Positions 33,901 to 49,692 of a stretch of 64,000 nt of DNA are shown piece by piece (the first letter of the stretch is position 1; every line of letters starts with the position of its first letter). Origin of the DNA: Prochlorococcus marinus str. MIT 1013 (GTDB lineage Bacteria; Cyanobacteriota; Cyanobacteriia; PCC-6307; Cyanobiaceae); the NCBI RefSeq assembly GCF_027359395.1, contig NZ_CP114778.1, positions 496,001 to 560,000 on the forward strand, given 5' to 3'. A program made the translations under genes and the position numbers. The notes under the pieces were generated by a model. The model made no database searches. It had not been told where the DNA came from and saw only the letters and a list, made by a program, of their open reading frames with translations.

Positions 33901-33914
33901 AAAAAAGATAGGAG

Positions 33915-36357: not shown

Positions 36358-36665
36358 GAAACCCCCTATTTAATAGGGGGTTTCTAACTTCAATAGTTAC
36401 TCAAAGCTCCTTATTGGAGTCTCAGAGTGAATTGGTTAAGCCCGGTATGTAGGAAATGCAAGGCTAAGATTTTTTATCAAGGAAATCGGAGAGCTACCTT
36501 TAATAAATTTGCGAGCAAAGAGACAGGATTTCAACGTCTGTCCCCTCCGCTGACTTGAGCTTGAAAGCAACGTGTCTTTAGAAGAAGTTAATAGCTCAGT
36601 CGTGAGAAGAATCAAATTGAAGTTCTCTAAAACTGATGTTCGGTTAAGGTAGTGCTTTCCTACTC
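36358..36665 (-). ncRNA. Repeated RNA-like element, copy A
   Basis: In the minus direction it begins near GGAAAGCACTACC, runs through CCGAACATCAG, the hairpin GACAG-ACGTTGAAATC-CTGTC (36522-36542) and CCTTGCATTTCCTACATACC, and ends in the strong hairpin AACCCCCTATT / AATAGGGGGTT followed by TCTATTGC. The same ordered blocks recur at 38941-39205 and 49358-49692. The reading frames are not conserved between copies, which argues for an RNA. It is divergent from the small CxxC gene at 36715. Confidence 0.6.
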
Positions 36666-36714
36666 CCTTTTCAAAGATTGGGGGAGTAGACCAAAGGTGT
36701 ATCAAGGAGGGCTT

Positions 36715-36867
36715 ATGAAACTCTTTACTCCTTTTTCCATTCCTCAAAAAGACAACTGCGATTGTTGCAGGAATAAAACTAATAAAAGAAGAAAAGTTGA
36801 GATTCTATTTTTAGATCAATTATTTAAATTCCTCTATAGGGATAGGTTTAATTATGTTTTCGACTGA
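36715..36867 (+). CDS. 50-aa CxxC protein (MKLF family)
   Basis: MKLFTPFSIPQKDNCDCCRN then KTNKRRKVE, FLDQLFKFLYR and an end VFD. The gene at 48195-48347 encodes a protein of the same 50 residues' length with C15 and C18, the basic KTNKR stretch and LDQLFK-LYR-RF--VFD conserved, so it is truly coding. AGGAGG lies 5 bases upstream of the ATG. The Cys pair may bind metal or be redox active. Both copies lie divergent from a copy of the RNA-like element. Confidence 0.75.
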   Translation: MKLFTPFSIPQKDNCDCCRNKTNKRRKVEILFLDQLFKFLYRDRFNYVFD

Positions 36868-36949
36868 CCTAGGTCTATAAAAATGAAAACCATTCAAGGC
36901 CAGATAAACATTGATGTTCTATGGACAAAATAGTAACGGAGTATTTGCA

Positions 36950-37477
36950 ATGCGTTTAAATTTTGTTCCTACTCACGTTTTCCGTGAAACACCTCAAGTA
37001 TCGTTCTTCGATGCAGGAGTAAAAGGATCCAATGGCTCTGATGTAGTCATTCATCACGGCAATGCCATCTCACCCCCAAACGATGGTGATTTTGAGCAGT
37101 ATTACGTACATCGACATCAAATTGATCACAATTTAGTGATCGAAGGTAGCCGTATTTTTACTTTGATAAATCCTGAATGGGAAGAACCTTATCACATTGT
37201 TTATTTAAATCGTGCCATGGGTGCACTTCAAATTCCTGTCGGAACATTTCATCGATCAATCTCTAATTATGAAGGAAGTATTGTTCTAAACCAAGCTATA
37301 AGAGATGAAAAATTTAATCCTAAAAATGAATTTACACCTGTTAGCTTAAGAGACAGAAAAGATTTACAAGAAACTCAAAAGAAAAATCCTGTTTACTGGT
37401 TTTGGGAAAAAGATCAAATAAAAAGAATTAAGTTAGATTCAATTCAATCTAAGGAAAAAGTTTTAAATAAACTTTAG
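36950..37477 (+). CDS. Cupin-fold protein, 175 aa
   Basis: Start ATG 36950 with GGAG upstream; the frame is open to 36911. Cupin features: HHGNAISPP, QYYVHRHQIDHNLVIEGSRI (first box with His residues and Glu) and VPVGTFHRSISN-like IPVGTFHRS (second box). This is a beta-barrel metal-dependent protein, possibly an isomerase or dioxygenase; the substrate is unknown. Followed by a terminator of the GACTTAGGTC type also found after two other genes of this island. Confidence 0.7.
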   Translation: MRLNFVPTHVFRETPQVSFFDAGVKGSNGSDVVIHHGNAISPPNDGDFEQYYVHRHQIDHNLVIEGSRIFTLINPEWEEPYHIVYLNRAMGALQIPVGTFHRSISNYEGSIVLNQAIRDEKFNPKNEFTPVSLRDRKDLQETQKKNPVYWFWEKDQIKRIKLDSIQSKEKVLNKL

Positions 37478-37572
37478 GGAAATTTAAGAGGAAATTTAAA
37501 ATCCAATATAAGCTCAACTCCTATGAAAGAAAGTAATATAAGTTGATAGCCAATTACCCATCTAAATAACTG

Positions 37573-37597
37573 GGTCTGATTTAGGTCAGCCCTTTTT
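37573..37597 (+). terminator. Terminator of the cupin gene (TTAGGTCAG type)
   Basis: GGGTCTGA-TTTAGG-TCAGCCC followed by a T run. It overlaps the last codons of the opposing gene 37581-37781. Very similar hairpins occur at 41246 and 41702. Confidence 0.7.
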
Positions 37598-37781
37598 TAT
37601 TTTTTTTCATGCTGTCTCTAGCATTTGAATCATTTTCTAATGTTGTATTAATCAAACCTTGGAAGTCTCCAAAGGCAGAGGCGATACCAAACATCACGAT
37701 AAAACTTAAACCAGCAACAATCGTCACAATCCAAGTACCTGTTCCCATATTGAGTGGTACTGCAAATAAAGGACTAGGCAT
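37581..37781 (-). CDS. 66-aa single-helix membrane protein
   Basis: MPSPLFAVPLNMGTGTWIVT then a helix (IVAGLSFIVMFGIASAFG) and a polar basic tail. It has the size and character of photosystem accessory subunits, but no family is recognised. Its 3' end overlaps the cupin terminator. Confidence 0.6.
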   Translation of the reverse strand: MPSPLFAVPLNMGTGTWIVTIVAGLSFIVMFGIASAFGDFQGLINTTLENDSNARDSMKKNKKGLT

Positions 37782-38048
37782 TCAAAAATCATTTACTAAT
37801 AAAACACCATAAAGAGTTTTGGTTGTTTAACGGTTCCTTCTGTATGAAAAGAAATAAACAATTCAAAAGACAGATAGGTAAATAAAGAAAACTCCTATTG
37901 GGTTTAAACCTGTCACCGATGAAATTTGAGTCCAAATAGTATTGATCAAAAATCACACCATATCCAAGCATGTGATCAAAAACTCCCTAGCTTCTGAAGT
38001 ACCAAGACAGGACAAATCCAATGAAAGCTAAACTGCGAATATTGCCAT

Positions 38049-38291
38049 CTATCTTTTTTCCTTTTTCATATCGTAATTAAATTTGGTAGAAGCTTTGTTG
38101 CCTTGCCAACTAAGAGTGCCTTGATACATGTCCTCACCTTGTAAATATCTAATTGCCTCATCCGACATTGGATCAGGTGAAGGTGCTTCAACTATTTCCT
38201 CTTGAGGCATTGGCTCAACATCTTCTGCTTGAGCTGCAAAAGGGCGAAGAAACAAAAGAAGACAAAGAACAAAAGAAAAGCATTTTTTCAT
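38049..38291 (-). CDS. Secreted 80-aa protein, paralogue of 44596-44862
   Basis: Signal peptide MKKCFSFVLCLLLFLRPFAA with cleavage near AQAED. The mature part has an acidic Pro/Glu stretch, then LQGEDMYQGTLSWQGNKAST and a basic end. The paralogue at 44596-44862 shares the signal, the PMT/S-x-EAI/QL stretch, GEEMYIGE-W-GNK-STK and the K-rich end. Periplasmic, function unknown. Confidence 0.75.
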   Translation of the reverse strand: MKKCFSFVLCLLLFLRPFAAQAEDVEPMPQEEIVEAPSPDPMSDEAIRYLQGEDMYQGTLSWQGNKASTKFNYDMKKEKR

Positions 38292-38326
38292 TGTTATTCT
38301 GAGAATTTCTATATAAAAGAGGAATT

Positions 38327-38620
38327 TTATGTTTTTTCAATTGGTGCCATTGTTAATCCTTTGCTGATTAGTTGCTGATGATATAGCTCTGCCTGTTCAA
38401 GGGGGCCTCTCCATACTTCCGCCAAACCTTCCCTATCTACTTCGACGGCAAGTAACCATGATCTTTTTTCACTCATTCCTGGGATGATTGCCACAAGACA
38501 ATTTGCTACATGTTCAAACGTATTAAAATTATCATCAAGGACTATTATCCTTGCTTCTGGATATTTTCTTTTTGTTGTCTTTGGATCTAAGACTGTAGTT
38601 GAAGTAGTTTCTTGATCCAT
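38327..38620 (-). CDS. clpS: ATP-dependent Clp protease adaptor ClpS
   Basis: 97 residues from ATG 38620 (an ATG at 38644 is also open). YPEARIIVLDDNFNTFEHVA matches the ClpS beta strand and the N-degron-binding DD(N/D)-F-x-T-x-E-x-V motif. GMSEKRSWLLAVEVDREGLA is the following conserved helix and strand. ClpS delivers N-end-rule substrates to ClpC. The first few codons of this gene are duplicated at 49201. Confidence 0.88.
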   Translation of the reverse strand: MDQETTSTTVLDPKTTKRKYPEARIIVLDDNFNTFEHVANCLVAIIPGMSEKRSWLLAVEVDREGLAEVWRGPLEQAELYHQQLISKGLTMAPIEKT

Positions 38621-38665
38621 AAAAATGGGGGCCAATGCCCCCAAGATAAATCAACTCTCGACCTA

Positions 38666-38815
38666 TTAAGTGTTTAAGTCGAATTTTGATTCAGTAGTCT
38701 TAACTGGAATTGGATTATTTGCTAAAGAATCATCTCCTGAGGAAGCTTGAAAAACAACTCCAGCCCCACCTATCAATAAAACTGCGAACATGATTGCGTG
38801 ATATGCAGTAAACAT
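38666..38815 (-). CDS. 49-aa membrane peptide MFTAYH family, copy 1
   Basis: MFTAYHAIMFAVLLIGGAGV then VFQASSGDDSLANNP and a Thr/Glu/Lys tail. Nearly identical to 49006-49158, including 100 bases upstream. One membrane helix. Directly upstream of clpS in the same direction. Confidence 0.7.
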   Translation of the reverse strand: MFTAYHAIMFAVLLIGGAGVVFQASSGDDSLANNPIPVKTTESKFDLNT

Positions 38816-38879
38816 TTTCTAAAATCTAAACTTATAAAAATCTAATCAGTTGAGATGTAGCAGTGATGTAGTACAAAGC

Positions 38880-38933
38880 GAATGTTTCTGGGGTGTTTCT
38901 CCTACTACTGCTAGGCGGTGGTCGATGGCGTAA
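38880..38933 (+). pseudogene. HTH protein tail fragment
   Basis: ECFWGVSPTTARRWSMA-stop: the C-terminal recognition-helix part of the small HTH protein seen complete at 46147-46293. Divergent from the MFTAYH gene, as in the copy at 48888-48945. Confidence 0.5.
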
Positions 38934-38940
38934 AACTATG

Positions 38941-39205
38941 CAAAAGAAAACCCCCACGATGGAGGGTTAACTGAAAACTATGTAAAGAAGTTTTTCAAGG
39001 GGAAAGATTAAACATTCCAACACTTCGGGTTCTCAAAAAAGTGCAGACTTAATGACCTTTTTGAATTCCCAAGAGAGGACAGGATTTCGATGACCGTCCC
39101 CCGATCTTGCTTGATGATGCTTCCGTATTACGCCATTAAATTGTTAATAATTTAAAAAGAACTTCTCTAGTCCGAATTTTCGCTTGAGGTAGTGCTTTCC
39201 AAACT
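38941..39205 (-). ncRNA. Repeated RNA-like element, copy B
   Basis: Minus direction: GGAAAGCACTACCTCAAGCG, then GTAATACGGAAGCATCATCA, the hairpin arm GGGACGGTCATCGAAATCCTGTCC (39077-39101), CTGCACTTTTTT, and the terminator CCCTCCATCGTGGGGG followed by TTTTCTTTTGC. It lies downstream of the HGEE/poly-Gln gene, from which it is separated by the hairpin at 39301-39332. Confidence 0.6.
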
Positions 39206-39222
39206 TTGCTTGTTTTCTGGGT

Positions 39223-39339
39223 TGATGTTCACCTATAAATGAATAGAGGCCAAACCTCATCAAGACATAATTGACTTTATATAGTACGAGTCGATTAATA
39301 ACCCCTCTAGTTATTGGAATTTCTAGAGGGGTTTCTTGT
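39223..39339 (-). repeat. About 110-bp inverted duplicate (second copy 49226-49345, plus)
   Basis: Almost identical over roughly 100 bases on opposite strands, containing the hairpin ACCCCTCTAG / CTAGAGGGGT (39301-39332 and 49233-49264), the stretch ATTAATCGACTCGTACTATA and ATTATGTCTTGATGAGGTTT. The hairpin may end upstream transcripts, and TACTATA could serve as a -10 box for the RNA-like element. Confidence 0.8.
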
Positions 39340-39342
39340 TTG

Positions 39343-39741
39343 TTATTGCTGTTGCTGTTGTTGCTGCTGTATTTGCTCGTAAAAAGTAGAGGGCTTTTTA
39401 ATTGTTGTCCGATATTCACTAACTATCTCGGTAACTTCCTCACCATGAATCCAGCGGATTTCGCCAGAATCCACATTTGCGATCTGAAAAAGTGTCGGTG
39501 TGCCTGGATCTCGTGAACCACCTATAAATGTGAGAACTTTTCCTATTTGATCCGCCTCGTATAAGACAGCGTCACCCGGTCTGACTTTTAAAAATAAAGG
39601 TTTATCCATAAATTCATTCTGTCCAAATCCATCAATCATGGGAAGTATCCTTTTAGACCAATTTCGAAGTCTGTTAAATAAAGTAGTTTCAGACAGTATT
39701 TGACTAAGAATTAAAGCTATCACTGGGGAGTAAAGACTCAT
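39343..39741 (-). CDS. Membrane-anchored HGEE-family protein with poly-Gln end
   Basis: 132 residues from ATG 39741 (a longer start at 39768 is open). N-terminal hydrophobic segment SLYSPVIALILSQILS, then MDKPLFLKVRPGDAVLYEAD, FIGGSRDPGTPTLFQIANV and SGEIRWIHGEEVTEIVSEY, homologous to the whole 67-residue protein at 10802-11005. It ends in 8 Gln in a row encoded by CAA/CAG. Here membrane segment and domain are fused; at 10.8-11.2 kb they are two overlapping genes. Confidence 0.7.
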   Translation of the reverse strand: MSLYSPVIALILSQILSETTLFNRLRNWSKRILPMIDGFGQNEFMDKPLFLKVRPGDAVLYEADQIGKVLTFIGGSRDPGTPTLFQIANVDSGEIRWIHGEEVTEIVSEYRTTIKKPSTFYEQIQQQQQQQQ

Positions 39742-39987
39742 GAGATCCCTCTGAGATAACAGTCTCACTTTCCAATTAAAAAAGACAGGCTGGTAAACCT
39801 GTCTCTGACTGATCGGGGCGACAGAATTCGAAACTTCGACCTAGTGCTCCCAAAGTCTTGGTTCTCATCCAGTGAGAACGGTAATATTCAATCTATTACT
39901 GTAATCTTAGACTGTATACTTCTCCATGAGACTGTAAACCTACGACCACTAAAGGGTGCTTTTACACTCAAGTGAGTGTAGAAATAA
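39742..39987. repeat. Direct repeat 1, attachment-site-like
   Basis: About 246 bases matching 42060-42308 in the same orientation with scattered differences. Contents in order: GAGATCCC...GTCTCA, hairpin AGACAGG / CCTGTCT, the 3' half of tRNA-Pro (minus strand), AGTGAGA-CGGTAATAT, and GACCACTAAAGG with the inverted repeat ACACTCA / TGAGTGT (about 39963-39980). This copy has no integrase after it. Confidence 0.85.
39813..39858 (-). tRNA. tRNA-Pro(UGG) 3' half, degenerate fragment
   Basis: In the minus direction: CTTTGGGAGCACTAGGTCG, then a mutated T-arm AAGTTTCGAATTCTGTCGC and CCCGA. The anticodon loop TTTGGGA keeps anticodon UGG. No 5' half (D-arm, acceptor strand) is present, so it is not a functional tRNA but an integration footprint. 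Confidence 0.75.
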
Positions 39988-40045
39988 GGCAGTCCAAAAG
40001 CATTATCGATTTGGTGATTAAACTAGGCAACCACTTTCAAATCAG

Positions 40046-40141
40046 ATGAAAAACATTTCTAAAGTTATTGCAATCGGAATTGTTGCGATCTTTGTTCTTT
40101 CTGCATTTGCAGGATTATTCGGGACTCTTTTATCAAGCTAA
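40046..40141 (+). CDS. 31-aa membrane peptide
   Basis: MKNISKVIAIGIVAIFVLSA then FAGLFGTLLSS: one helix. First of a run of five closely spaced small plus-strand genes (40046-40855). Confidence 0.5.
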   Translation: MKNISKVIAIGIVAIFVLSAFAGLFGTLLSS

Positions 40142-40152
40142 TCAATCTCGTC

Positions 40153-40326
40153 ATGATTTATAAAATCGTTAGGCATGATAAAGAATCTGATGATATTACT
40201 GACCAATCATTTATCAGTTATGACGAGGCATACGATCTATTAGAAGAAATATATTCCGATGTTTGTTGTTCTGATGCTGATTATGGGGACCGTCCCTATT
40301 ATGAAATTATTGAGGTAAAAGAATGA
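40153..40326 (+). CDS. 57-aa acidic soluble protein
   Basis: MIYKIVRHDKESDDITDQSF then ISYDEAYDLLEEIYSDVCCS and YYEIIEVKE. The pattern strand, S-Y-D-E-A helix, terminal strand resembles small phage-type proteins. It overlaps the next gene by 4 bases (ATGA). Confidence 0.55.
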   Translation: MIYKIVRHDKESDDITDQSFISYDEAYDLLEEIYSDVCCSDADYGDRPYYEIIEVKE

Positions 40327-40463
40327 AAATTATAGATAGGCATAAGCAACTAATTGCTTGGTATAAAAAGAAGATTGGTGTGACTGATTATGGATTACTT
40401 TGGCTTGTCTTTTTCAAAGGAGTATTTGTAGCTCTAGTACTAGAAAGATTGATTGTTCACTAA
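40323..40463 (+). CDS. 46-aa single-helix membrane protein
   Basis: MKIIDRHKQLIAWYKKKIGV then TDYGLLWLVFFKGVFVALVL and ERLIVH. Stop TAA directly abuts the ATG of the next gene. Coupled within the small-protein operon. Confidence 0.55.
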   Translation: MKIIDRHKQLIAWYKKKIGVTDYGLLWLVFFKGVFVALVLERLIVH

Positions 40464-40670
40464 ATGTTTAATCAAGACGTCCTATTGGAATATCTAAGTT
40501 CACCTGAGGGGATTAATAAAATTATTGTAGGAATAATCATAGCTGGAGCCATTAATGCAATTTTCATTACCTATAGCGTTAGAAGTACTTATGGAGCTGC
40601 AAAAAAAGAAAGAGAAAAACTAAAAATTCAACAAGCTAAAATTGATAAATTATCACCGACACAAGAATAG
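40464..40670 (+). CDS. 68-aa membrane protein with coiled-coil tail
   Basis: N-terminal soluble part, a helix (GINKIIVGIIIAGAINAIFI) and a Lys-rich coiled tail. Follows the previous stop without spacing. Confidence 0.55.
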   Translation: MFNQDVLLEYLSSPEGINKIIVGIIIAGAINAIFITYSVRSTYGAAKKEREKLKIQQAKIDKLSPTQE

Positions 40671-40675
40671 ATTAT

Positions 40676-40855
40676 ATGCCTCTTTTAAATCTATGGAGAA
40701 GAACATCAAGAGGTAGACGTTTAAATATTAAACGTGTCATTTTATTCCCTGTAATCGTTTATGCAGCCTATATTTTTATTGATAGCTTTATGCCTTTGTT
40801 TATGGTTGGATTTGTAGTTTGGTTGTTGTATAGCTGGTATGGGAATAGGAGGTAG
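40676..40855 (+). CDS. 59-aa membrane protein
   Basis: MPLLNLWRRTSRGRRLNIKR, strongly basic, then two short hydrophobic segments (VILFPVIVYAAYIFI and LFMVGFVVWLLY). Last of the five-gene run. Confidence 0.55.
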   Translation: MPLLNLWRRTSRGRRLNIKRVILFPVIVYAAYIFIDSFMPLFMVGFVVWLLYSWYGNRR

Positions 40856-40920
40856 GTTCAACAAAATTTCGTTCAAACAATACGAAATATGTTCTAATTA
40901 CTGAGTCTTATTAATTAAAA

Positions 40921-41184
40921 ATGAAGGTAGCAACTCGGATCGTCTTTAAGATCAGCAACACTTTCTCTGAATGGGCGAAAGCATTTGATGATGATCGCGC
41001 CAATCAAGAAGCCGCAGGGATAAAAGCAATCTTTCGAGGTGTCAGCGAAACAGATTCTTCCACTGTGATGGCAATCCTTGAGGCTGAGCCAGGAGTTTTA
41101 GGCAAGTACATGGAAGGAAACAAAGATGTAGAAGCTTCTGGTCACATTATTGGTAGTGAAGAATTTTCAAATTGGATGGCATAA
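40921..41184 (+). CDS. DUF3764-like alpha-beta-barrel protein, 87 aa
   Basis: MKVATRIVFKISNTFSEWAK, then KAIFRGVSETDSSTVMAILE and a final SEEFSNWMA. Strand-helix-strand-strand pattern of a dimeric alpha-beta barrel, with the F-R-G core and terminal IIGSE that I associate with the picocyanobacterial DUF3764 family. Ends before a TTAGGTCAG-type terminator. Confidence 0.65.
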   Translation: MKVATRIVFKISNTFSEWAKAFDDDRANQEAAGIKAIFRGVSETDSSTVMAILEAEPGVLGKYMEGNKDVEASGHIIGSEEFSNWMA

Positions 41185-41245
41185 AAACACATTAATCGCA
41201 CTAATCTTTAACTGGTTGAAAGCCGATTGCTATCCGAACCAGTTG

Positions 41246-41270
41246 GACTGACTTAGGTCAGTCTTTTTTA
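41246..41270 (+). terminator. Terminator (GACTGAC-TTAG-GTCAGTC)
   Basis: A perfect 7-base stem followed by TTTTTT, about 60 bases after the DUF3764-like gene; nearly the same sequence as at 37573 and 41702. Confidence 0.85.
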
Positions 41271-41384
41271 TTGGTTGATGACTTGGATGGGTTTGGAAGA
41301 AAAGTAACTGTCAAAGGGTGATCATCTTGACAAGCAACTAAGACAAAATTCGTTTAGAAGAATCAGGTCTATAAAAAACAATTT

Positions 41385-41657
41385 ATGCTCTACATACAGC
41401 ATTGGAAATTCAAGCCTGGTTATCACCAAAAGGGTGCAGAAAAATTTTTAGCAACTGGAGCTCCCTATGCTGGAGCAGAAATGCTAGGTCGCTATCACGC
41501 ACCTGGATCTCTTGAAGGTTGGATCCTAGTTAAAGCAGAAGATCCAAAAGCACTTTATGAGCATTCAGCGCAATGGGCTGAATATCTAGATTGGGAAACC
41601 ACTCCAGTATTTACAGATGAAGAAGCGGGTCCAATTTGCGCAAAAATCTACGGTTAA
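41385..41657 (+). CDS. DUF3303-like alpha-beta-barrel protein, 90 aa
   Basis: MLYIQHWKFKPGYHQKGAEK, then GAEMLGRYHAPGSLEGWILV and YEHSAQWAEYLDWETTPVF. The opening strand with H-W, GRYHAPGS-x-GW and the W-x-x-x-L-x-x-x-x-P-V-x-x helix-strand are hallmarks of DUF3303, a dimeric alpha-beta-barrel family. Function unknown. Own terminator. Confidence 0.75.
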   Translation: MLYIQHWKFKPGYHQKGAEKFLATGAPYAGAEMLGRYHAPGSLEGWILVKAEDPKALYEHSAQWAEYLDWETTPVFTDEEAGPICAKIYG

Positions 41658-41701
41658 ACCAAAAACGAATCAATTACACCTGATGGTTAATTGAATAAAT
41701 T

Positions 41702-41727
41702 GGGCTGACTTAGGTCAGTCCTTTTTA
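41702..41727 (+). terminator. Terminator (GGCTGAC-TTAG-GTCAGTCC)
   Basis: A 7-8 base stem followed by TTTTTATT, 45 bases after the DUF3303-like gene. Third member of the shared terminator type. Confidence 0.85.
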
Positions 41728-41728
41728 T

Positions 41729-41872
41729 TCAATTAACCATCATATAGAAAAGAAATCCTGCGAGAATGGTTGATTTTGCACCAATGCCATAAGCAATTAT
41801 CTTTCCAAATCTTGCACCTTTGGAATAATTAGACCAATGATTATAAGCCTTATCACAAGAAGTAATTTCTAA
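41729..41872 (-). pseudogene. Truncated membrane protein remnant
   Basis: The frame ITSCDKAYNHWSNYSKGARF then GKIIAYGIGAKSTILAGFLF ends at TGA 41729-41731 but has no start codon after an upstream stop. Looks like the C-terminal part of a lost gene. Confidence 0.35.
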
Positions 41873-42059
41873 TTAGAGAAAAGGTTTAGCGAGAAAAGGA
41901 AGTTGCTATGCACTACACCTCCCTTAACTCTCACTGGATCAATGGTCACTGATTACAAAATATAACTAGAAATTCTTTGTTCCTATAGGACTGTTGAGGT
42001 AGGGCTAACAAGCACAGAAAGTTCAAAACCATTGCTAACAAATACAAGTAACTATTCGG

Positions 42060-42308
42060 GAGATCCCGCTGAGATCCCAGTCTCATTTACCCATTACAAA
42101 AGACAGGCTGGGGAACCTGTCTCTGACTGATCGGGGCGACAGGATTCGAACCTGCGACCTTGTGCTCGTAAAGCCCACGTTCTCCCCTAGTGAGATCCGT
42201 AATATAAAAGTTTTGAAGTTAATGTTTCTAATGCTACTCAGACCCTAAGACTTACTACTAATGACCACTAAAGGTTGATTTTACACTCAACTGCGTGTAA
42301 AAAAAATA
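42060..42308. repeat. Direct repeat 2, attachment-site-like, next to the integrase
   Basis: Partner of 39742-39987: the same order of hairpin AGACAGG / CCTGTCT (42101-42122), tRNA-Pro 3' half on minus, AGTGAGA-CCGTAATAT, GACCACTAAAGG and TTTACACTCA-CTGCGTGTAAA. It ends 27 bases before the integrase start, as expected for an att region. Confidence 0.85.
42131..42176 (-). tRNA. tRNA-Pro 3' half, fragment with intact T-arm
   Basis: Minus direction: AAGGTCGCAGGTTCGAATCC then TGTCGCCCCGA, a perfect T-arm and acceptor 3' strand of tRNA-Pro. The anticodon loop is altered to TTTACGA. There is no 5' half, so it is an attachment footprint rather than a working tRNA. Confidence 0.75.
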
Positions 42309-42335: not shown

Positions 42336-43583
42336 TTGCCGAAAGCAGCCTCAGAAAGTTGGGTAAAGGATTTCAGGAAATCTGTTAAAGCTTCATGTCC
42401 AAAAGGTTGGCTCGTTATGGCTGGAAGGAAGGAAAGCATGAGAGTTCAAGTCTGGAAGAATAAAAAAGTTATTGGTGACGTATCTATTCCATACAAATGG
42501 GAAGAAAAATTTTGGCCTGACGCATTACTAAGAATTAGATCGGCAGCAAAAGCTTATGAAGAATCAAAGCAGAGACTAGATATAAAAACTTGCTTCAATA
42601 TTGCTCAAACAGTTTCAAACAATACTGAAATTAATTGGGAAGAATCAATCGAAGCTTATAGGGAATTTAAAAAAGATCTTGTAAAAGATTCGACATGGCG
42701 TAACAAATATCACCCTGTCTTTAACAACGTAATCAATGCCACTAGAAATACTTCCAAAGCACCTTTAAATGGGCCAGCACTTTGCAAGGTTGCACTTAAG
42801 CAATGGCAACAAGGAACACCGATAAGAAGACACATGCGCCTAGCCCTTTTTGGGTTTCTTCGGTTTTGTGTTCAGGAACAGCAGTTCGAGTCCACGTGGT
42901 TGCCCCCAGCCGTAACAGATAAAGATTTAGTCACTACTAAAAAGAGAGTTGGTTATCCATTAACTGATTCACAAATTCTCCGATTATTAGATTCTTTCCC
43001 AGCAGATGAAATTGGTAATAAATGGAGGTTTGCTTTTCAATGTATAGCTGTTTATGGCCTAAGACCTGAGGACCTCCGAACAATCCATACCCGTAATGGT
43101 GGACAAGAAATTTGGACTAATTACCAAAAGTCCAGAGGTGGAAAGAAAGGAGAAAAGACAGAGGCTAGACGTTTATATCCCCTGCTGGTCCATGACATTG
43201 ATGGTCCCATTAACTGGCATCTAAAAGAGCAATTAGCGATATGTGAAAAGGAAGGTTTGAATCTACTTCCTCCACTTGGAAAAGAAGGAAATGCTGGCGA
43301 TGCTTGTAGAACTTATTTAAGTCGCAGAAAAGTTTGGCAGGCTATCAGAAAAGAAGTTTCCAGGGAAAATCAAGAATTAACTGCTTACAGCTTTCGTCAT
43401 AGATATGCCTACTGCGGTCACAATCGACCTAAAGCAGATGGAAGTTATAGAGCGCTAAAACAAATTGCTGATGCAATGGGTCATACATTAGATACTCATC
43501 TTTTGAGCTATTCCAGATTCCAAACGAAAGATCTAGCTAGTGCTTTTGACGAAACCTCACTCCTAGTAAAAGGAACATATTGA
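42336..43583 (+). CDS. Tyrosine recombinase (integrase)
   Basis: 415 residues from a TTG start; no ATG lies near in frame. An N-terminal basic arm, then a core-binding part and the catalytic domain. Box I Arg is in YGLRPEDL (about 242), box II YSFRHRYAYCGH (about 353, with Tyr where the first His is often found), then MGHTLDTHLLSYSRF carrying the late His and the nucleophilic Tyr (about 392). It integrates or excises DNA by strand exchange, presumably at tRNA-Pro given the adjoining repeat. It seems intact. Confidence 0.92.
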   Translation: MPKAASESWVKDFRKSVKASCPKGWLVMAGRKESMRVQVWKNKKVIGDVSIPYKWEEKFWPDALLRIRSAAKAYEESKQRLDIKTCFNIAQTVSNNTEINWEESIEAYREFKKDLVKDSTWRNKYHPVFNNVINATRNTSKAPLNGPALCKVALKQWQQGTPIRRHMRLALFGFLRFCVQEQQFESTWLPPAVTDKDLVTTKKRVGYPLTDSQILRLLDSFPADEIGNKWRFAFQCIAVYGLRPEDLRTIHTRNGGQEIWTNYQKSRGGKKGEKTEARRLYPLLVHDIDGPINWHLKEQLAICEKEGLNLLPPLGKEGNAGDACRTYLSRRKVWQAIRKEVSRENQELTAYSFRHRYAYCGHNRPKADGSYRALKQIADAMGHTLDTHLLSYSRFQTKDLASAFDETSLLVKGTY

Positions 43584-43830: not shown

Positions 43831-43836
43831 AATATT

Positions 43837-43980: not shown

Positions 43981-43982
43981 AA

Positions 43983-44063: not shown

Positions 44064-44174
44064 ATCAAATGCATCGAAGCTCGTCCATATATACAAATAC
44101 TGAGTTAAGTCATAGAAAACGTCTATTATTATCCTTTATCAAAAGAGACATAGTGTTCGTGCAATAGTGCACTT

Positions 44175-44339
44175 CTAAGTGATTCTTCTGTTGATTCTTT
44201 TTCTCAATTCATTTAATTGAACGTTGAATCTTAATTGCTTTATATGATCAAGCTTTTCAGCCATATCTACAGGCATTGTTCGAGCGGCTTTAACTAAAGC
44301 GAAAGCGTACCTATGTGTATCTTTAGGAAAAGAGTCCAT
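44175..44339 (-). CDS. 54-aa THRYAF-family helical protein, copy 2
   Basis: MDSFPKDTHRYAFALVKAAR then TMPVDMAEKLDHIKQLRFNV and a basic end RKRINRRIT. Closest to the copy at 5136-5300; all three have the same length. Confidence 0.75.
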   Translation of the reverse strand: MDSFPKDTHRYAFALVKAARTMPVDMAEKLDHIKQLRFNVQLNELRKRINRRIT

Positions 44340-44478
44340 AGTCGAAGTAAGGACTTATATACTCACTCAAGCGAAAACGATAACCAGTTGTCCATAGGTA
44401 TATAAAATTTGAGTATTAGTGCCGAGAGCAATAAAAGAGAGTTTTGACCTTTAATAGAAAAATCGGCCCATTAAATGT

Positions 44479-44595
44479 ATGACTAGAAAAGAATTTATGG
44501 ATAAGTTCTTTGATCTTTGCAAGGATGCTCAAGAAGAAATTCCACCAAATGTGATCGCAGAAATTCTCAGAGATTATGCAGATAGGTTGGATTAG
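44479..44595 (+). CDS. 38-aa helical protein
   Basis: MTRKEFMDKFFDLCKDAQEE then IPPNVIAEILRDYADRLD. Acidic, helical, related in pattern to 32318-32482. Stop TAG abuts the next ATG (TAGATG), giving a three-gene operon with 44596-44862 and 44855-45277. Confidence 0.6.
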   Translation: MTRKEFMDKFFDLCKDAQEEIPPNVIAEILRDYADRLD

Positions 44596-44862
44596 ATGAA
44601 AAAACTCTTTGCTTTGGTTTTTGGTCTTTTTTTGTTTTTCAGTCCTTTGGCAGTAGAAGCAGAAGAGGTTGCGATAATACCCCAAGTGGAAATAGCTGAA
44701 GTACTTGCTCTTGAGCCAATGACCGAAAAGCAATTAAACGATTTATTTGGAGAGGAAATGTATATAGGAGAAACTGATTGGCGAGGTAACAAGGTTTCAA
44801 CTAAAAGGGATTACAACAAGAAAAAGAAAAATAGAGAGGACAGCCCGACCTCAAATGACTGA
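44596..44862 (+). CDS. Secreted 88-aa protein, paralogue of 38049-38291
   Basis: Signal peptide MKKLFALVFGLFLFFSPLAV with cleavage near VEAEE, then an acidic linker, GEEMYIGETDWRGNKVSTKR and a Lys-rich end extended by 8 residues relative to the paralogue. Overlaps the DUF4326-like gene by 8 bases. Likely periplasmic. Confidence 0.75.
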   Translation: MKKLFALVFGLFLFFSPLAVEAEEVAIIPQVEIAEVLALEPMTEKQLNDLFGEEMYIGETDWRGNKVSTKRDYNKKKKNREDSPTSND

Positions 44863-45277
44863 ACCTGAAGTCCATCCAAAGAAATATTTTGACCAAATAG
44901 AGGTGTTTGGCTCCATGGAGAAGCGTTCATGGATCCATGGTCCAAACTCACCCAAGAGATTCTTTATAAATGAACCAAAATGCCCTGTAAGAAACCCCTT
45001 CGACAGAATCGATGGAGTTGTAAGGGAAGAGGGAATAAAAATGTTTGATAGTTTGATTTGGCAGAGTTGGGATGAAGATGGAAATATTCCAAAAGCAGCT
45101 AAAAAGTGGTTTGAAGCAAGAGTGAAAGAGTTTAAAGCTGGAACAGATATTGATCTTGTTTGTAACTGTCGAAGATTTAGAGGTCAAGATAATGCAGTAG
45201 GTCTACAAGCTAAATACCCTTGCGATTGTCATGGCTATACATTGAAAAAATATATTGAATTTTTAGCAAACAATTAG
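44855..45277 (+). CDS. DUF4326-like protein, 140 aa
   Basis: Third paralogue: FDQIEVFGSMEKRSW, KRFFINEPKCPVRNPFDRID (with the NPF of DUF4326), REEGIKMFDSLIW, WFEARVKEFKAGTDIDLVCN then C-R-R, and PCDCHGYTLKKYIEFLANN. This copy keeps all box cysteines. Co-expressed with a secreted protein and a small helical protein. No activity can be assigned. Confidence 0.7.
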   Translation: MTEPEVHPKKYFDQIEVFGSMEKRSWIHGPNSPKRFFINEPKCPVRNPFDRIDGVVREEGIKMFDSLIWQSWDEDGNIPKAAKKWFEARVKEFKAGTDIDLVCNCRRFRGQDNAVGLQAKYPCDCHGYTLKKYIEFLANN

Positions 45278-45337
45278 TAACACTATTTCCTTTAACCTAG
45301 TCTTCAAGCAATAGAGCACCTCCTCACAGTTGCAGGT

Positions 45338-45384
45338 CGGTCGAAAACGAAATCAAATCTATCCCTGTAAAGGAATTTAAATAG
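45338..45384 (-). pseudogene. 3' remnant of a third MKLF-family gene
   Basis: LFKFLYRDRFDFVFDR in frame on minus, matching the last 14 residues of the 36715 and 48195 proteins. A stop precedes it and the rest is missing. Confidence 0.5.
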
Positions 45385-45587
45385 TTAGAGAATGCAGCTG
45401 TTCCAGAGAAAGAAGTACGCTTACACCAACCGTTATCAAGGACGAAGAGACCTTAAGTTCTTTTGCCATTGTGGAGAGGTAACTCTTGATTTATTTGTAT
45501 CGCACGCATTTTTAGGGTGCCGCATCCTCCGATACATTTTTGCAGCAGCAATAAAAGAAGAGAGAGGCTATTTGCCTCCCTCGCTGC

Positions 45588-45752
45588 TTAATTAAATTTT
45601 TTATTGATTCTTATCTTTAATGCTTCGGCTTGATAATTGCTTCTTATTTCCGTTAGGTGGGGGAGCTTTTCGGCTATATCAACAGCCATTTCTCTTGCTG
45701 CCTTTACTAGCTCGAAAGCATACCTATGAGTTTCTTTTTTGTAAGAATCCAT
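45588..45752 (-). CDS. 54-aa THRYAF-family helical protein, copy 3
   Basis: MDSYKKETHRYAFELVKAAR then EMAVDIAEKLPHLTEIRSNY and KIRINKKFN. The N-terminal half is strongly conserved with the other copies, the C-terminal half less so. Confidence 0.72.
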   Translation of the reverse strand: MDSYKKETHRYAFELVKAAREMAVDIAEKLPHLTEIRSNYQAEALKIRINKKFN

Positions 45753-45851
45753 AGTCGAAGTAAGGATTAAGGTAATATTTTGATGAAAAAGATAACCATT
45801 AGTAAATGAATAAAATTACTCAGATTGTTCATACGGTAACAAAAGTAACCG

Positions 45852-45912
45852 TTAAGCCATAGACCACTGCTTAGCAGTAGTTGGGCTAACTCCATAAATA
45901 TCAGCAATCACA
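45852..45912 (-). pseudogene. HTH protein tail, overlapping the lipoprotein end
   Basis: VIADIYGVSPTTAKQWSMA-stop. Overlaps the last codons of the lipoprotein 45901-46110 in another frame. The N-terminal part is missing. Confidence 0.5.
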
Positions 45913-46110
45913 TAGGTGTGGGTGTTCTCCAGTTGCACAATAGTCTGACGTTGAACCTCCACTACCTGTTACACCCTCACAAGTGTATTCACCTGCACCA
46001 CCTGTATCCATAAAATCGAAAGCACCTATTCCATAACCGCTACCCCCGCCTCCAGCACCAATACATCCAGTCAGTAATACCGCTATGGGTAGAAAAAATA
46101 AATTACGCAA
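45901..46110 (-). CDS. Small lipoprotein, 69 aa
   Basis: MRNLFFLPIAVLLTGCIGAG: a type II signal peptide with lipobox LTGC, then a Gly-rich stretch, FTCEG-like EYTCEGVTG and the end YCATGEHPHLCDC. Four Cys in the mature part could form disulfides. A broken homologue lies at 11817-12013. Expected in the outer or inner membrane, facing the periplasm. Confidence 0.7.
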   Translation of the reverse strand: MRNLFFLPIAVLLTGCIGAGGGGSGYGIGAFDFMDTGGAGEYTCEGVTGSGGSTSDYCATGEHPHLCDC

Positions 46111-46146
46111 AAGTGTCGAAGCCTATCCTCTTATACAAACACTTGT

Positions 46147-46293
46147 TTAATCCATAGACCACCTTCTAACAGTGGGCAGGGAAACCCCGTAAATATGTGA
46201 GGTTTTCTTCCAGCTCCAAACATATTTTCCATACCTGTTAATTCTTGTTTTCTTGGTATCTAACGACCAGATAAACAGCATTAGTTGAACCAT
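46147..46293 (-). CDS. Small helix-turn-helix protein, 48 aa
   Basis: MVQLMLFIWSLDTKKTRINR then YVWSWKKTSHIYGVSLPTVRRWSMD. The last 25 residues form an HTH (helix KKTSHI, turn YGVS, recognition helix LPTVRRWS). It is the most complete copy of a unit whose tail recurs at five other places. The start at 46293 is a guess; the frame is open to 46470. Confidence 0.5.
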   Translation of the reverse strand: MVQLMLFIWSLDTKKTRINRYGKYVWSWKKTSHIYGVSLPTVRRWSMD

Positions 46294-46402
46294 AAGCACA
46301 ACACAAAGCAACGCCAAAACACATGGAAAGGTGTCATTAGTTTGAAAGAGTGCTTTTATGTCGAGTGAGGACTTATGCCCTACGACTTCGATTCGTTCTT
46401 TT

Positions 46403-46903
46403 ATGCGCCGCCTTTTATTTGTTGCCCTGACAGCTGGGCTTCTATCACCTACCGCCGCGATTGCAGACACCTATGATGCACTCTGCAATGACAATAATTG
46501 TCAAATAACTATTAATGAATCTGGTTTGGCTGGTCCTCAGGGCTTAATTGCTAAAGAAAAAATTACTCAATGGTATAGAGGTGGAGATGAATACAACCTT
46601 GCTTCAGGTGCTACTGGAGGTGCTGCTGGAGGTACGGTTGGATTGGCTGTTGGTACTGCAGCTTGTATGACTGGAGTATTTTGTCCAGTAGCATTGGCCG
46701 TTGGTGTGTTTGGAGGAGGGAAAACAGGTGCAAGATTAGGTAATGGGAAAAATGTCTTTTTTACTGTGATGGGACAACAAGATGATGGTTCAAATTACGT
46801 TCAAAGTTTTAGATTTTTAAATAAGAGAACAGCAAAAAAACTTCAAAAAGAATTAATTAAATTCACTGGGTTGCAAATGGGACAAGTTAAATCTTCTGGA
46901 TAA
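46403..46903 (+). CDS. Secreted Gly-rich protein, 166 aa
   Basis: From ATG 46403: signal peptide MRRLLFVALTAGLLSPTAAI with cleavage after IAD or AIA. Two Cys, then a glycine-zipper-like hydrophobic region (GATGGAAGGTVGLAVGTAAC and VFCPVALAVGVFGGG), then a charged C-terminal domain. Glycine zippers insert into or associate with membranes. Function unknown. Followed 14 bases later by another secreted protein. Confidence 0.65.
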   Translation: MRRLLFVALTAGLLSPTAAIADTYDALCNDNNCQITINESGLAGPQGLIAKEKITQWYRGGDEYNLASGATGGAAGGTVGLAVGTAACMTGVFCPVALAVGVFGGGKTGARLGNGKNVFFTVMGQQDDGSNYVQSFRFLNKRTAKKLQKELIKFTGLQMGQVKSSG

Positions 46904-46917
46904 CTATCTGTATAAGA

Positions 46918-47319
46918 ATGAAACGCCTACTACTTGCACCGTTAATATTTGGAATTGCTGTACCTATTAATGCTGGAATCTATTACTACCCCTCTTATCA
47001 AGATGGAATAGAAGTTCGTTGCAAAGATGGCAAGCCTAAGCACCTTGTAGAAATCTCTAAGTCTGGTAGAGGACTGAAATTAGAGGGATATGGAGAAGAT
47101 CAATACTCATGGCCGATAACTTATTTATTTCCAGAAGCCTCAGACGAAAAATATAAATACTTCCCTTCTACTGCTGGTACTCAATGCAGTTATCGAAAAC
47201 TCGATGAAAAAGAAAAGAACTCATTAATTCTCAAAGCCTTCAAGACTTGTGTTGGCATTGAAGGAACACCTGAAGAGAGAATAGAAAAAAGTAAAAAGTA
47301 TTGCTTTGGGTGGAATTAG
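46918..47319 (+). CDS. Secreted protein, 133 aa
   Basis: Signal peptide MKRLLLAPLIFGIAVPINAG, mature part beta-rich with four Cys (VRCKDG, TQCSYR, KTCVG, KYCFG), likely two disulfides. Second gene of a pair with 46403-46903. Confidence 0.65.
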   Translation: MKRLLLAPLIFGIAVPINAGIYYYPSYQDGIEVRCKDGKPKHLVEISKSGRGLKLEGYGEDQYSWPITYLFPEASDEKYKYFPSTAGTQCSYRKLDEKEKNSLILKAFKTCVGIEGTPEERIEKSKKYCFGWN

Positions 47320-47335
47320 ATGAAACGCTTCCTCC

Positions 47336-47440
47336 TTAAGCCATAGACCACCGCCAAGCGGTAGTTGGACTAACTCCATAAATTCCAGCAACCTTTTTCC
47401 AACTCCACTTATTACTCTGGTTTGTATAAATAATCAGCCA
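47336..47440 (-). pseudogene. HTH protein remnant
   Basis: Minus frame reads IIYTNQSNKWSWKKVAGIYG then VSPTTAWRWSMA-stop, with no start codon. Same C-terminal HTH as 46147-46293. Confidence 0.5.
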
Positions 47441-47494
47441 TTAAAGCGAATCACTCTTTATGCTCTTACGAACAAAAAAATTCTCTTTTTAAAA

Positions 47495-47710
47495 GTGACT
47501 GAAATTAATTCTGAAGTGTTAACTCAATCAGAGAAACCCGTGGACTTTAATACCACCAAAAAACAAGAAGGTTTTTTATCTAATATATTTTCTCTTATGA
47601 ATAAGAACCCCAACTACAAAATGTTGGGAGCACTTGGAATAATGCTAGTGAATTTTTCTGTCTGCGTAACAATCGCTAATTGGCTAAAACATTCAAGTCT
47701 GGTCTCCTAA
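47495..47710 (+). CDS. 71-aa single-helix membrane protein
   Basis: GTG start; polar N-terminus with QEGFLSNIFSLMNKNPNYKM then a helix LGALGIMLVNFSVCVTIA. Pattern reminiscent of light-harvesting-like one-helix proteins but without a chlorophyll motif. 31 bases before the Nif11 gene. Confidence 0.5.
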   Translation: MTEINSEVLTQSEKPVDFNTTKKQEGFLSNIFSLMNKNPNYKMLGALGIMLVNFSVCVTIANWLKHSSLVS

Positions 47711-47740
47711 GGGGCAAAAAGTTTAGTCATAATGAAGACC

Positions 47741-48007
47741 ATGGCACTACAGCAACTAAAGGCTTTTCTTACAGAGCTTCAAAAAAATAAAGAATTACTC
47801 AACGCTATAAGAGTTGCTGCTACCGCAAATGAAATTGCAGAAATAGCATCGGGATTTGGTTATCAATTTTCAGGTGATGAATTAAAAGCGGCCTCAAAAG
47901 AAAATATTGCTGGTGTAAAAATTAAGAAACAAGACACATCTCCCTCTTATAGCTTTGGCGAGAGTGGAATAGATCCTAATGAAAGAAATTATAGAAGTGG
48001 TAACTAA
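47741..48007 (+). CDS. Nif11-like leader-peptide-family protein, 88 aa
   Basis: From ATG 47741: MALQQLKAFLTELQKNKELL, AIRVAATANEIAEIASGFGY and FSGDELKAASKENIAG. This matches the Nif11 domain (helix LxxFLxxxxxxxxL, then A-x-x-x-E-x-x-x-x-A-x-x-x-G-Y/F-x-F-x-x-x-E-L). Nif11 domains serve as leaders of modified peptides, for example in picocyanobacteria. The C-terminal 28 residues contain no Cys, so it is not a lanthipeptide precursor of the usual kind; no modifying enzyme is in the window. Confidence 0.75.
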   Translation: MALQQLKAFLTELQKNKELLNAIRVAATANEIAEIASGFGYQFSGDELKAASKENIAGVKIKKQDTSPSYSFGESGIDPNERNYRSGN

Positions 48008-48096
48008 TGGGAATAGCAATCACATATGTCATTGCAAATCTTGCAGTGCTGGGATTATTTTTTTATGTCACTTATCGAATGACCAGAAAAAGCTAA
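48007..48096 (+). CDS. 29-aa membrane peptide
   Basis: MGIAITYVIANLAVLGLFFY then VTYRMTRKS. Starts on the last base of the Nif11 gene's stop (TAATG) and ends in a TAATG overlap with the next peptide, so three genes are coupled. Confidence 0.65.
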   Translation: MGIAITYVIANLAVLGLFFYVTYRMTRKS

Positions 48097-48209
48097 TGAA
48101 TCACTTAAAAGCTGTTTTGCCATTTTTAGCGGCACTTGGTGTTTACTTCTTGGCACTTAATTCGTCGATGTATCAACAAATGAATCAACCCCACTCAGTC
48201 GAAAACTAA
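48096..48209 (+). CDS. 37-aa membrane peptide, paralogue of 5741-5908
   Basis: MNHLKAVLPFLAALGVYFLA then LNSSMYQQMNQPHSVEN. Conserved with 5741-5908 over the helix and the M-x-x-x-MNQ tail. Its 3' end overlaps that of the opposing MKLF-family gene by 15 bases. Confidence 0.65.
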   Translation: MNHLKAVLPFLAALGVYFLALNSSMYQQMNQPHSVEN

Positions 48210-48347
48210 ATCAAATCTACCCCTGTAGAGAGTTTTAAATAGTTGATCTAAAAATGGGTTTTCAGCTTCTTTTCTTTTATTAGTTTTAATCCTGCAAAGA
48301 TCGCAGTTGTCTTTTTTGGGGATAGTGAAGGGAGTAAAGAGTTTCAT
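48195..48347 (-). CDS. 50-aa CxxC protein (MKLF family), copy 2
   Basis: MKLFTPFTIPKKDNCDLCRI then KTNKRKEAE, FLDQLFKTLYRGRF and VFD. The same length and pattern as 36715-36867, with C15-x-x-C18. An AGGAGG site is 5 bases upstream. A fragment of the RNA-like element (48400-48431, GGAAAACACTACCC...CCGAACATCA) lies divergently upstream, as in the first copy. Confidence 0.75.
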   Translation of the reverse strand: MKLFTPFTIPKKDNCDLCRIKTNKRKEAENPFLDQLFKTLYRGRFDLVFD

Positions 48348-48519
48348 TAAGTCCTCCTTTCTTACACCTTTGGTCTAATCCTTCTTATTATTGGTTGGTA
48401 GTAGGAAAACACTACCCAAACCGAACATCATTACTTCAAGAATACTTTTTATATTTATCGCATCGGTGAATGGAATGTTCATCCCCTGTCTCACCGAAAA
48501 ACTTTCACCCCATACCGCA

Positions 48520-48630
48520 ATGACTTCAATAAATAATTCTTCAGCAGCTAAGTTCCTAGCTCTTTTTTGTATCCCTGCGCTAATCCTTGCATCAGGATCC
48601 ATTGATGTAGCTACTTCTGTAATCGTTTAA
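48520..48630 (+). CDS. 36-aa membrane peptide (LWNLPALLL family, divergent)
   Basis: MTSINNSSAAKFLALFCIPA then LILASGSIDVATSVIV. The Pro in the helix and the TSVIV end match 9380-9493 and 43717-43830. The start at 48520 aligns with those copies. Confidence 0.6.
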   Translation: MTSINNSSAAKFLALFCIPALILASGSIDVATSVIV

Positions 48631-48638
48631 TTAGCACA

Positions 48639-48773
48639 ATGCCTAAAAATTTTTCACCTGATTTTTACGAATCCATCCTTGAAGCTTCAGACAAGGGAGA
48701 GCTTTGGGGAATAGAAAATAGTGATTTAACCCCGCTAGAAATTCAGTTGCTTCTTTCTCATGACTTCAGCTGA
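48639..48773 (+). CDS. 44-aa acidic soluble protein
   Basis: MPKNFSPDFYESILEASDKG then ELWGIENSDLTPLEIQLLLS. Overlaps the next small gene by 14 bases. Unrecognised. Confidence 0.5.
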   Translation: MPKNFSPDFYESILEASDKGELWGIENSDLTPLEIQLLLSHDFS

Positions 48774-48876
48774 TAAAGCAGCATTCGAAAAGAAGGCTTT
48801 TAAGCTTCTTCCTTTTCTTATTTTGGGAAAAATTATATTTGCCACTTGGTTTATTTCCTACTTGGTGCAACTCTAA
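48760..48876 (+). CDS. 38-aa membrane peptide
   Basis: MTSADKAAFEKKAFKLLPFL then ILGKIIFATWFISYLVQL. Charged start plus one helix. Overlap with the preceding gene suggests coupling. Confidence 0.5.
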   Translation: MTSADKAAFEKKAFKLLPFLILGKIIFATWFISYLVQL

Positions 48877-48887
48877 TTTTATTAGTC

Positions 48888-48945
48888 TTTGCCATAGGCC
48901 ACCGCTTAGCAGTAGTAGGAGAAACACCCCAGAAACATTCGCTTT
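48888..48945 (-). pseudogene. HTH protein tail fragment, stop codon lost
   Basis: Minus frame ECFWGVSPTTAKRWPMAK continues past the usual stop. Almost identical DNA to 38880-38933 in inverted orientation; both lie divergent from an MFTAYH gene. Confidence 0.5.
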
Positions 48946-49005
48946 GTACTACATCACTGCAATATCTCAACTGACTAGATTTTTCATAAGTATAGGTTTT
49001 AGAAA

Positions 49006-49158
49006 ATGTTTACTGCATATCACGCAATCATGTTCGCAGTTTTATTGATAGGTGGGGCTGGAGTTATTTTCCAAGCCTCCTCAGGAGATGATTCTTTAGC
49101 AAATAATCCAATTCCAGTTAAGGCTACTGAATCAAAATTCGACTTAAACACTTACTAG
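49006..49158 (+). CDS. 50-aa membrane peptide MFTAYH family, copy 2
   Basis: MFTAYHAIMFAVLLIGGAGV then IFQASSGDDSLANNP and KFDLNTY. Differs from 38666-38815 in a few residues plus one extra Tyr at the end. Part of a larger inverted duplication. Confidence 0.7.
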   Translation: MFTAYHAIMFAVLLIGGAGVIFQASSGDDSLANNPIPVKATESKFDLNTY

Positions 49159-49200
49159 GACGACAGTCGATTTATCTTGGGAGCATTGGCTCCCATTTTT

Positions 49201-49224
49201 ATGGATCAAGTAAAAACAGGTTAA
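49201..49224 (+). pseudogene. clpS: 5' fragment of clpS
   Basis: ATGGATCAAG and the preceding 40 bases (CATTGGC-CCCATTTTT) match the clpS start region at 38610-38660. After three codons the sequence diverges (MDQVKTG-stop). Confidence 0.6.
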
Positions 49225-49357
49225 AACAAGAAACCCCTCTAGAAATTCCAATAACTAGAGGGGTTATTAATCGACTCGTACTATATAAAGTCAATTATGT
49301 CTTGATGAGGTTTGGCCTCAATTAAATATATAGGTGAAATCAGGTTAGAAAACAAGT

Positions 49358-49692
49358 AAAGCTTGGGAAGCACTACCTCAACCGAACATCAGTTTAATTA
49401 AATTCTTTTTAGATTCTTATCACACAAGTGCGAGTAACAAGGTTAAAAACTGTGTTGCGGATCAAGCTCTAGTCAGAGAGGGGGACAGTCGTCGAAATCC
49501 TGTCCCTTTGCTCGCAAACAATAAAAAAAAGTTCATTAGGTCTGCACTTTTTTTATGTAAACAAACACTCAGGTTAAGCCTTGCATTTTCCTACATACCG
49601 GGCATAACCAGTCTCTTCAACACATTGATTAGGCGCTTTGAGTAACTATTAAAGTTAGTTAGCCCCCTCTTAAAAAAGGGGGTTTTCTATTG
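49358..49692 (+). ncRNA. Repeated RNA-like element, copy C (best preserved)
   Basis: Order: GGGAAGCACTACCTCAACCG, AACATCAG, hairpin GGGACAG-TCGTCGAAATC-CTGTCCC (49482-49506), TTTGCTCGCAAA, CTGCACTTTTTT, CCTTGCATTTTCCTACATAC, CTTTGAGTAACTATT, and the terminator CCCCCTCTTAAAAAAGGGGG followed by TTTTCTATTGC. A possible promoter lies in the conserved block upstream. Compared with copies A and B, the stems are kept while other bases vary. No known RNA family is recognised. Confidence 0.6.

Follow-up and report, generated by a model that had tools for sequence, protein, structure and literature searches.

In this work we analysed a 64,000-nucleotide (nt) window of the Prochlorococcus marinus MIT 1013 genome (contig NZ_CP114778.1, positions 496,001 to 560,000) and a repeated, terminator-ended element that occurs in it, some copies of which (class A) carry a reversed fragment of psbC, the gene for CP43. 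From the sequence, we lean towards the view that the product of class A copies is an antisense RNA acting in trans, which would pair with the psbD–psbC mRNA near the psbC start and lower CP43 synthesis. The features read from the sequence are the layout of these copies, an antisense match that starts 12 nt into psbC, a single origin of the captured piece, and conservation of that piece above most of the RNA. The original prediction, made from the letters of the window alone, took the element for one terminator-ended non-coding RNA family; it is indeed structured, apparently non-coding, terminator-ended and located in islands, but it is not one RNA, as one head is joined to several 3' parts. 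The psbC antisense segment, the adjoining Yfr13 genes and the swapping of upstream and downstream parts had been overlooked.

The antisense segment of the copy at 49358 matches the minus strand of the same genome (G000:C1:766224-766301), about 220 kb away, at the start of psbC in the psbD–psbC operon (locus L006; genes named from their translations). Taking the GTG at L006 1490, nine bases 3' of GAGGAGG, as the start codon, the match covers nt +12 to +89 of psbC, and no other non-family gene of the genome matches the segment at E up to 0.05. The class A copies thus lie far from a gene to which they are specifically complementary, which is the arrangement of a trans-acting antisense RNA. The terminator and the orientation of the copies fix the strand as antisense; by BLAST the segment follows heads in 21 genomes, 26 times in antisense and 0 times in sense. 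Predicted duplexes with psbC of the same genome reach -70.1 to -117.0 kcal/mol in 20/20 copies tested (20 of the 24, with G011, G026, G033 and G038 left out), including -91.2 kcal/mol for the copy at 36358, whereas 200 random pieces of the window gave means of -21 to -26 and never fell below -44.4 kcal/mol. The 49358 copy can form 34 unbroken pairs with psbC.

One base that is present in 19/19 psbC genes of the clade is missing from 24/24 aligned copies, and two other carriers, L187 and L191, are by reading also one base short at that site (which base is open in L187). This common loss argues for one capture without recopying. Longer psbC matches of 101–106 nt in L181, L187 and L191, all of which bear a second head type, suggest that the captured piece measured at least 101–106 nt and has since been shortened in most copies; the short segment is joined to the second head type once (L174). 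The segment is not kept as a protein, because changes are spread over all codon positions (75, 71 and 96 of 624 each). A protein-coding origin was rejected accordingly, there being no common frame and a similar degree of change at each codon position, and the earlier claim that reading frames are not preserved holds across the 24 class A copies, whose longest open reading frames (ORFs) lie at different places and span 13 to 58 codons.

If class A loci are transcribed from their predicted start, the product would be an RNA of about 220–280 nt (277 and 257 nt for the two class A copies of the window) made of a two-hairpin head, the reversed psbC fragment and a terminator. The segment itself is predicted to fold into a GCC-loop-GGC hairpin around CAUUUCCUAC, with the inner stem paired in 79% of alignment cells, and a second hairpin, CUUURA-GUAACUA-UUAAAG, paired in 96% of cells. 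First contact might be made by the hairpin loop with core CAUUUCCUAC to GUAGGAAAUG in psbC, from which pairing would spread to a long duplex. This duplex would either block psbC initiation or flag the psbD–psbC mRNA for RNase attack, with less CP43 as the outcome. That the same RNA pairs with the same mRNA to protect it or raise its expression seems unlikely, even though all the pairing evidence fits such an action equally. We favour hindrance because pairing from 12 nt past the start codon reaches the region under an initiating ribosome, an argument that depends on the size of the initiating-ribosome footprint. In the same clade, the cis-antisense RNA of atpF in strain NATL2A has been proposed to act positively on its target (PMC7368042).

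A scan with a covariance model of the head (R1, described below) detected 75 heads within the genus; they lie in 31/41 of its genomes, including 15/17 of the well-completed ones. In a sample of 300 genomes of the family it found heads in 20, all among the 24 of the window's genus, and in 0/276 genomes of other genera. BLAST with the 49358 copy matched 37/41 genus genomes, a count that includes psbC itself, and the copy numbers from that search are to be read as 'at least'. One genome can hold as many as four copies. Named records with the exact hairpin pattern comprise 18 stretches, all from Prochlorococcus single-cell genomes, and the clade of carriers is, we assume, low-light I. By rough text signatures, about 17 heads have a GGAATGTTCA hairpin (class B), 8 are followed by a terminator that stands ahead of an MDMNP gene (class C), 3 serve as leaders to genes of the MYGVNEA type (class E) and about 20 fall into none of these groups; these counts are approximate, except for the 26 by BLAST, and the signatures misplace L202 in class A and L185 among the others. 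Neighbouring DNA varies between copies, and upstream and downstream parts have been exchanged between them.

A rival reading is a cis-acting leader with an attenuator, in which the 3' parts, the psbC antisense too, set read-through into the next small gene, and in which psbC mRNA might be the signal that opens the terminator. Some heads run straight into small ORFs or precede a terminator and a gene, as in classes C and E, and 12/24 class A copies have an intact MNL(D/E)KQ ORF about 100 nt past the terminator. In 10/24, however, the downstream DNA is different, some copies facing a gene on the opposite strand, and 2/24 could not be judged because of a contig end and a broken ORF. Since the DNA in those ten is unrelated to the commonest neighbour, class A is not tied to one cis gene; the one-gene-in-cis layout holds by position for classes C and E but not for class A overall, and we consider the leader account improbable.

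Conservation bears on whether the segment does anything. Leaving aside L026, whose 5' end is cut, mean column identity is 0.82 in the segment (76 columns) versus 0.71 in the 156 columns pooled from spacer, helix 1, linker and terminator, a difference reached by 0/10,000 permutations, and the ends of the segment are well kept (0.88–0.89 in 20-nt windows), nearly at the level of the promoter box. Several points weigh against an antisense function. In the comparison just given, the region limits were set by eye and the columns are not independent; the promoter box (0.89) and the head hairpin (0.86) are more conserved than the segment (0.82); identity falls to 0.66 in the middle of the segment, where drift is greatest in the subtype of the 36358 copy; unique transitions show no clear wobble bias (17 keep G-U pairing, 12 break pairing); copies do not clearly resemble the psbC of their own genome more than that of others; the segment is found on only 26/75 heads; and 10/41 genus genomes, several of them incomplete, have no head by R1. 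The common base loss, the drifted middle and the lack of wobble bias and of own-allele tracking are what one would expect if the segment were a passive relic of a single capture, with selection acting on promoter and head, but the segment outdoes linker, helix 1, spacer and terminator in conservation and its ends nearly match the promoter box, so that we regard a relic as no better a candidate than the leader.

The head is common to all classes, and its hairpins have covariation support. R1 was built from 22 sequences, the 49358 head included and two copies with the other head type omitted (90 positions, 19 pairs). It detects the other head type at E of about 1e-7 to 1e-4 and, at its threshold, misses the 38941 and 33904 copies. 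The original prediction had looked to compensatory changes as support. Over the 24 class A sequences the covariation score is 0.158, versus 0.125 in shuffles (0/500 as high) and at most 0.082 when the structure was slid, although pairs changed on both sides are no more numerous than in shuffles (5 versus 3.5; 110/500), and the signal comes largely from one two-state pair, in counts that the kinship of the sequences inflates. At one head pair the AU and UA states occur in 13 and 8 sequences. The stated head structure is paired in 89.8% of cells in these sequences versus 87.6% in shuffles (0/500 as high), and RNAalifold retained 21 pairs in the whole class A alignment. Folding energy lies below that of shuffles for the 49358 (z -2.92) and 36358 (z -3.95) copies, but not for the 38941 copy (z -0.86), for which 37/200 shuffles were as good.

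Upstream of the head lies a conserved block, GGAAAGC(C/A)CTACCTCAACCGAACATCAG, followed about 14–18 nt on by TTCTTTTTANATT, which is also found upstream of genes that have no head: at 48398 in the window and at small-protein operons in other genomes. The first shared block (GAAAGCACTACC), formerly taken as part of the RNA, therefore probably belongs to a promoter or activator site. Its 20-nt box occurs at 8 places of the genome (up to 3 mismatches) versus 0 for a reversed control; a simple sigma-70 scan gave no site at the module of the copies, so that the module is conserved and its promoter role is predicted. The supposed 5' RNA fragment at 48400-48431 is this promoter part, upstream of a small-protein ORF, and not a broken RNA. 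This distribution suggests that many tiny island genes share one promoter module, and because the promoter is shared, the antisense RNA would probably be switched together with the tiny-gene operons of the islands. The module heads operons of very small proteins at L057 824, 6551 and 13629, at L058 6692 and 13690, and at 48401 of the window. A second hairpin, TCGGTGA...TCACCGA, recurs in the leaders of many such operons; its loop holds GGAATGTTCAAYC, and class B RNAs carry this motif as well. As a common site, GGAATGTTCAAYC was not retained, with 2 forward and 7 reverse places (up to 2 mismatches) versus 2 and 2 for the control. The small proteins tried matched no Pfam or PHROGs family, and their identification as light-inducible proteins was dropped on that ground.

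Within the window (Table 1), the positions given earlier for the three good copies, the decayed one and the short one are correct. The hairpin pattern (up to 3 mismatches) has 3 matches in the window versus 0 in 100 shuffles. The GGACAG/CTGTCC stem is real, and is fuller as GGGACAG/CTGTCCC, but the loop is of 11 nt (UCGUCGAAAUC in the 49358 copy) and not of 7 nt. As predicted, CTGCACTTTTTT is present in two copies, 38941 and 49358, and terminator-like sites close all three good copies. Further copies in the same genome (G000, a single contig of 2,046,712 bases) include those at 595545-595859, 598908-599220, 604229-604367 and 1044036-1044196.

Table 1. Copies of the element, their parts and adjoining features; positions are those of the 64,000-nt window.
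Feature	Position	Strand	Remarks
Class A copy	49358-49692	+	promoter module, head, psbC antisense, terminator
Promoter module of 49358 copy	49358-49423	+	profile match; box GGGAAGCACTACCTCAACCGAACATCAG, probable -10 TAGATT at 49410-49415
Head of 49358 copy	49427-49517	+	two stem-loops; second GGGACAG 49482-49488 / CTGTCCC 49500-49506
psbC-antisense segment of 49358 copy	49577-49654	+	90% identity, E 5.8e-22
Intrinsic terminator of 49358 copy	49661-49692	+	8 pairs, stem 49661-49684, T-rich tail
Class A copy	36358-36665	-	promoter module, head, psbC antisense, terminator
Promoter module of 36358 copy	36602-36667	-	profile match
Head of 36358 copy	36509-36598	-	alignment; E 8.6e-22 with model R1, whose training set included this head
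psbC-antisense segment of 36358 copy	36388-36467	-	more diverged: 63/77 aligned positions equal own psbC
Terminator of 36358 copy	36362-36379	-	terminator scan
Class B copy	38941-39207	-	promoter module, other head type, GGAATGTTTAATC hairpin region, terminator 38949-38968; no psbC segment
Decayed class B copy	33904-34172	+	promoter and head kept, different end; no psbC segment
Promoter module alone	48398-48463	+	profile match; upstream of small ORFs (MTSINNSSAAKFLALFCIPALILASGSIDVATSVIV and others)
Yfr13	39246-39319	+	Rfam RF02364, 64.7 bits; divergent to 38941 copy
Yfr13	49246-49319	-	Rfam RF02364, 64.7 bits; divergent to 49358 copy
Island integrase gene	42336-43583	+	phrog_1, E 1.3e-11

The proposed integrase beside the copies is supported by PHROGs (Table 1) and gets no support from Pfam. 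Upstream of its gene, direct repeats of 180 and 64 nt (77–78% identical) at 39729-39987 and 42047-42306 are possible attachment sites; a sub-threshold tRNA match at 42131-42188 on the minus strand (24.5 bits, cut-off 29) lies inside one of them. All six Yfr13 genes detected (two in the window, four in L050, L057 and L058) adjoin a copy divergently, and across ten loci no Yfr13 match was found beside the other copies. The regions 38608-39341 and 48891-49323 consist of blocks 94–99% identical, inverted and in changed order, with the small-ORF block and the Yfr13 block flanking the RNA copy on swapped sides; the different block order at these two places suggests module recombination. A dispersed short repeat (family D1), CATAGACCACCGCC...GCAGTAGTTGG, occurs at 45852-45907, 47336-47391 and 48887-48942, among other places, and past class B terminators in other genomes. 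Glutamine-II riboswitches lie near island copies (L003 1130-1185, L005 1186-1241, L016 1125-1182 and L057 11687-11744), a ClpS adaptor gene (38327-38644; PF02617, E 2.7e-11) lies near the 38941 copy, and 24733-30725 carries secretin and pilin-like genes (PF00263, PF07963), probably of a type IV pilus or secretion system.

That no known RNA family covers the copies was borne out: in the window only Yfr13 reaches the gathering score of its Rfam family, and at E up to 1 nothing convincing lies over the copies between 33800 and 50000, the anti-hemB match at 49612-49690 being taken as chance (26.2 bits, cut-off 49.5). A tRNA or tmRNA origin was set aside, as ARAGORN called no such gene in either the window or the nine loci scanned. 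A phage origin was rejected, since there was no match in 50,697 phage records (E 0.01) and two exact patterns were absent from IMG/VR by exact matching. Nor was a host target retained for the class B 3' part, whose consensus has a best non-family match of 17 nt (E 0.83), or for the 38941 copy, whose two best matches (E 0.08) span 20 and 27 nt; the 27-nt one lies in the sense direction of a putative DNA polymerase I gene.

Tentatively, these observations may be brought together in a model in which the islands carry a small-RNA building kit of one promoter and head-hairpin pair with various 3' parts, to which a reversed piece of psbC was added, making a trans-acting brake in one step; the islands would then have spread it through the clade, so that mobile DNA would set CP43 synthesis of the host. 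If so, a reversed fragment of a host gene, captured inside mobile DNA, would have given rise to a trans-acting antisense RNA with an exactly named target, and the long and short antisense parts, the two head types and the several 3' parts would be intermediates that can still be seen. Mobile islands would then be linked directly to photosystem II control in a very abundant phototroph.

By titles and abstract openings, no trans-encoded psbC antisense RNA of Prochlorococcus is reported in the open-licence literature among the matches listed. One parallel concerns isiA, a relative of psbC: IsrR is likewise antisense to this CP43-family gene, but it is encoded opposite its target, whereas the present RNA is encoded 220 kb off. 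The IsrR model (RF01419) matched none of the copies at gathering score, and none of those in the window at E up to 1; its Rfam matches fall within psbC itself (L006, L034). Confinement to certain clades is a property shared with the Prochlorococcus small RNAs Yfr13 and Yfr106–108 (PMC2518516; PMC7368042); Yfr13 differs in that its RF02364 matches sit beside the copies on the other strand, and one of the RNAs Yfr106–108, reported from NATL2A (PMC7368042), may be a copy of the present family, which would mean that the RNA has been detected earlier. Yfr2 of MED4 is a small RNA that likewise acts in trans, and the targets pulled down with it include photosystem II mRNAs (PMC6778093), but it is conserved widely in cyanobacteria and its targets were found via pull-down, whereas here the RNA contains a 78-nt copy of its target. 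CfrI of cyanophage S-PM2 is a mobile-element antisense RNA linked to the photosystem II gene psbA (PMC12197685); unlike the present family, which is absent from the phage records searched, it is cis-encoded beside the phage psbA. A transposon-derived trans-acting antisense RNA is known from Sulfolobus solfataricus, where RNA-257 pairs with the 3' untranslated region of a phosphate transporter mRNA (PMC3674436). In both cases paralogous RNAs derive from mobile DNA and are complementary over a long stretch to a host mRNA encoded elsewhere; RNA-257 is archaeal and directed at a 3' untranslated region, whereas the RNA described here would act at the start of a bacterial photosystem gene and has a head in common with other RNAs and leaders.

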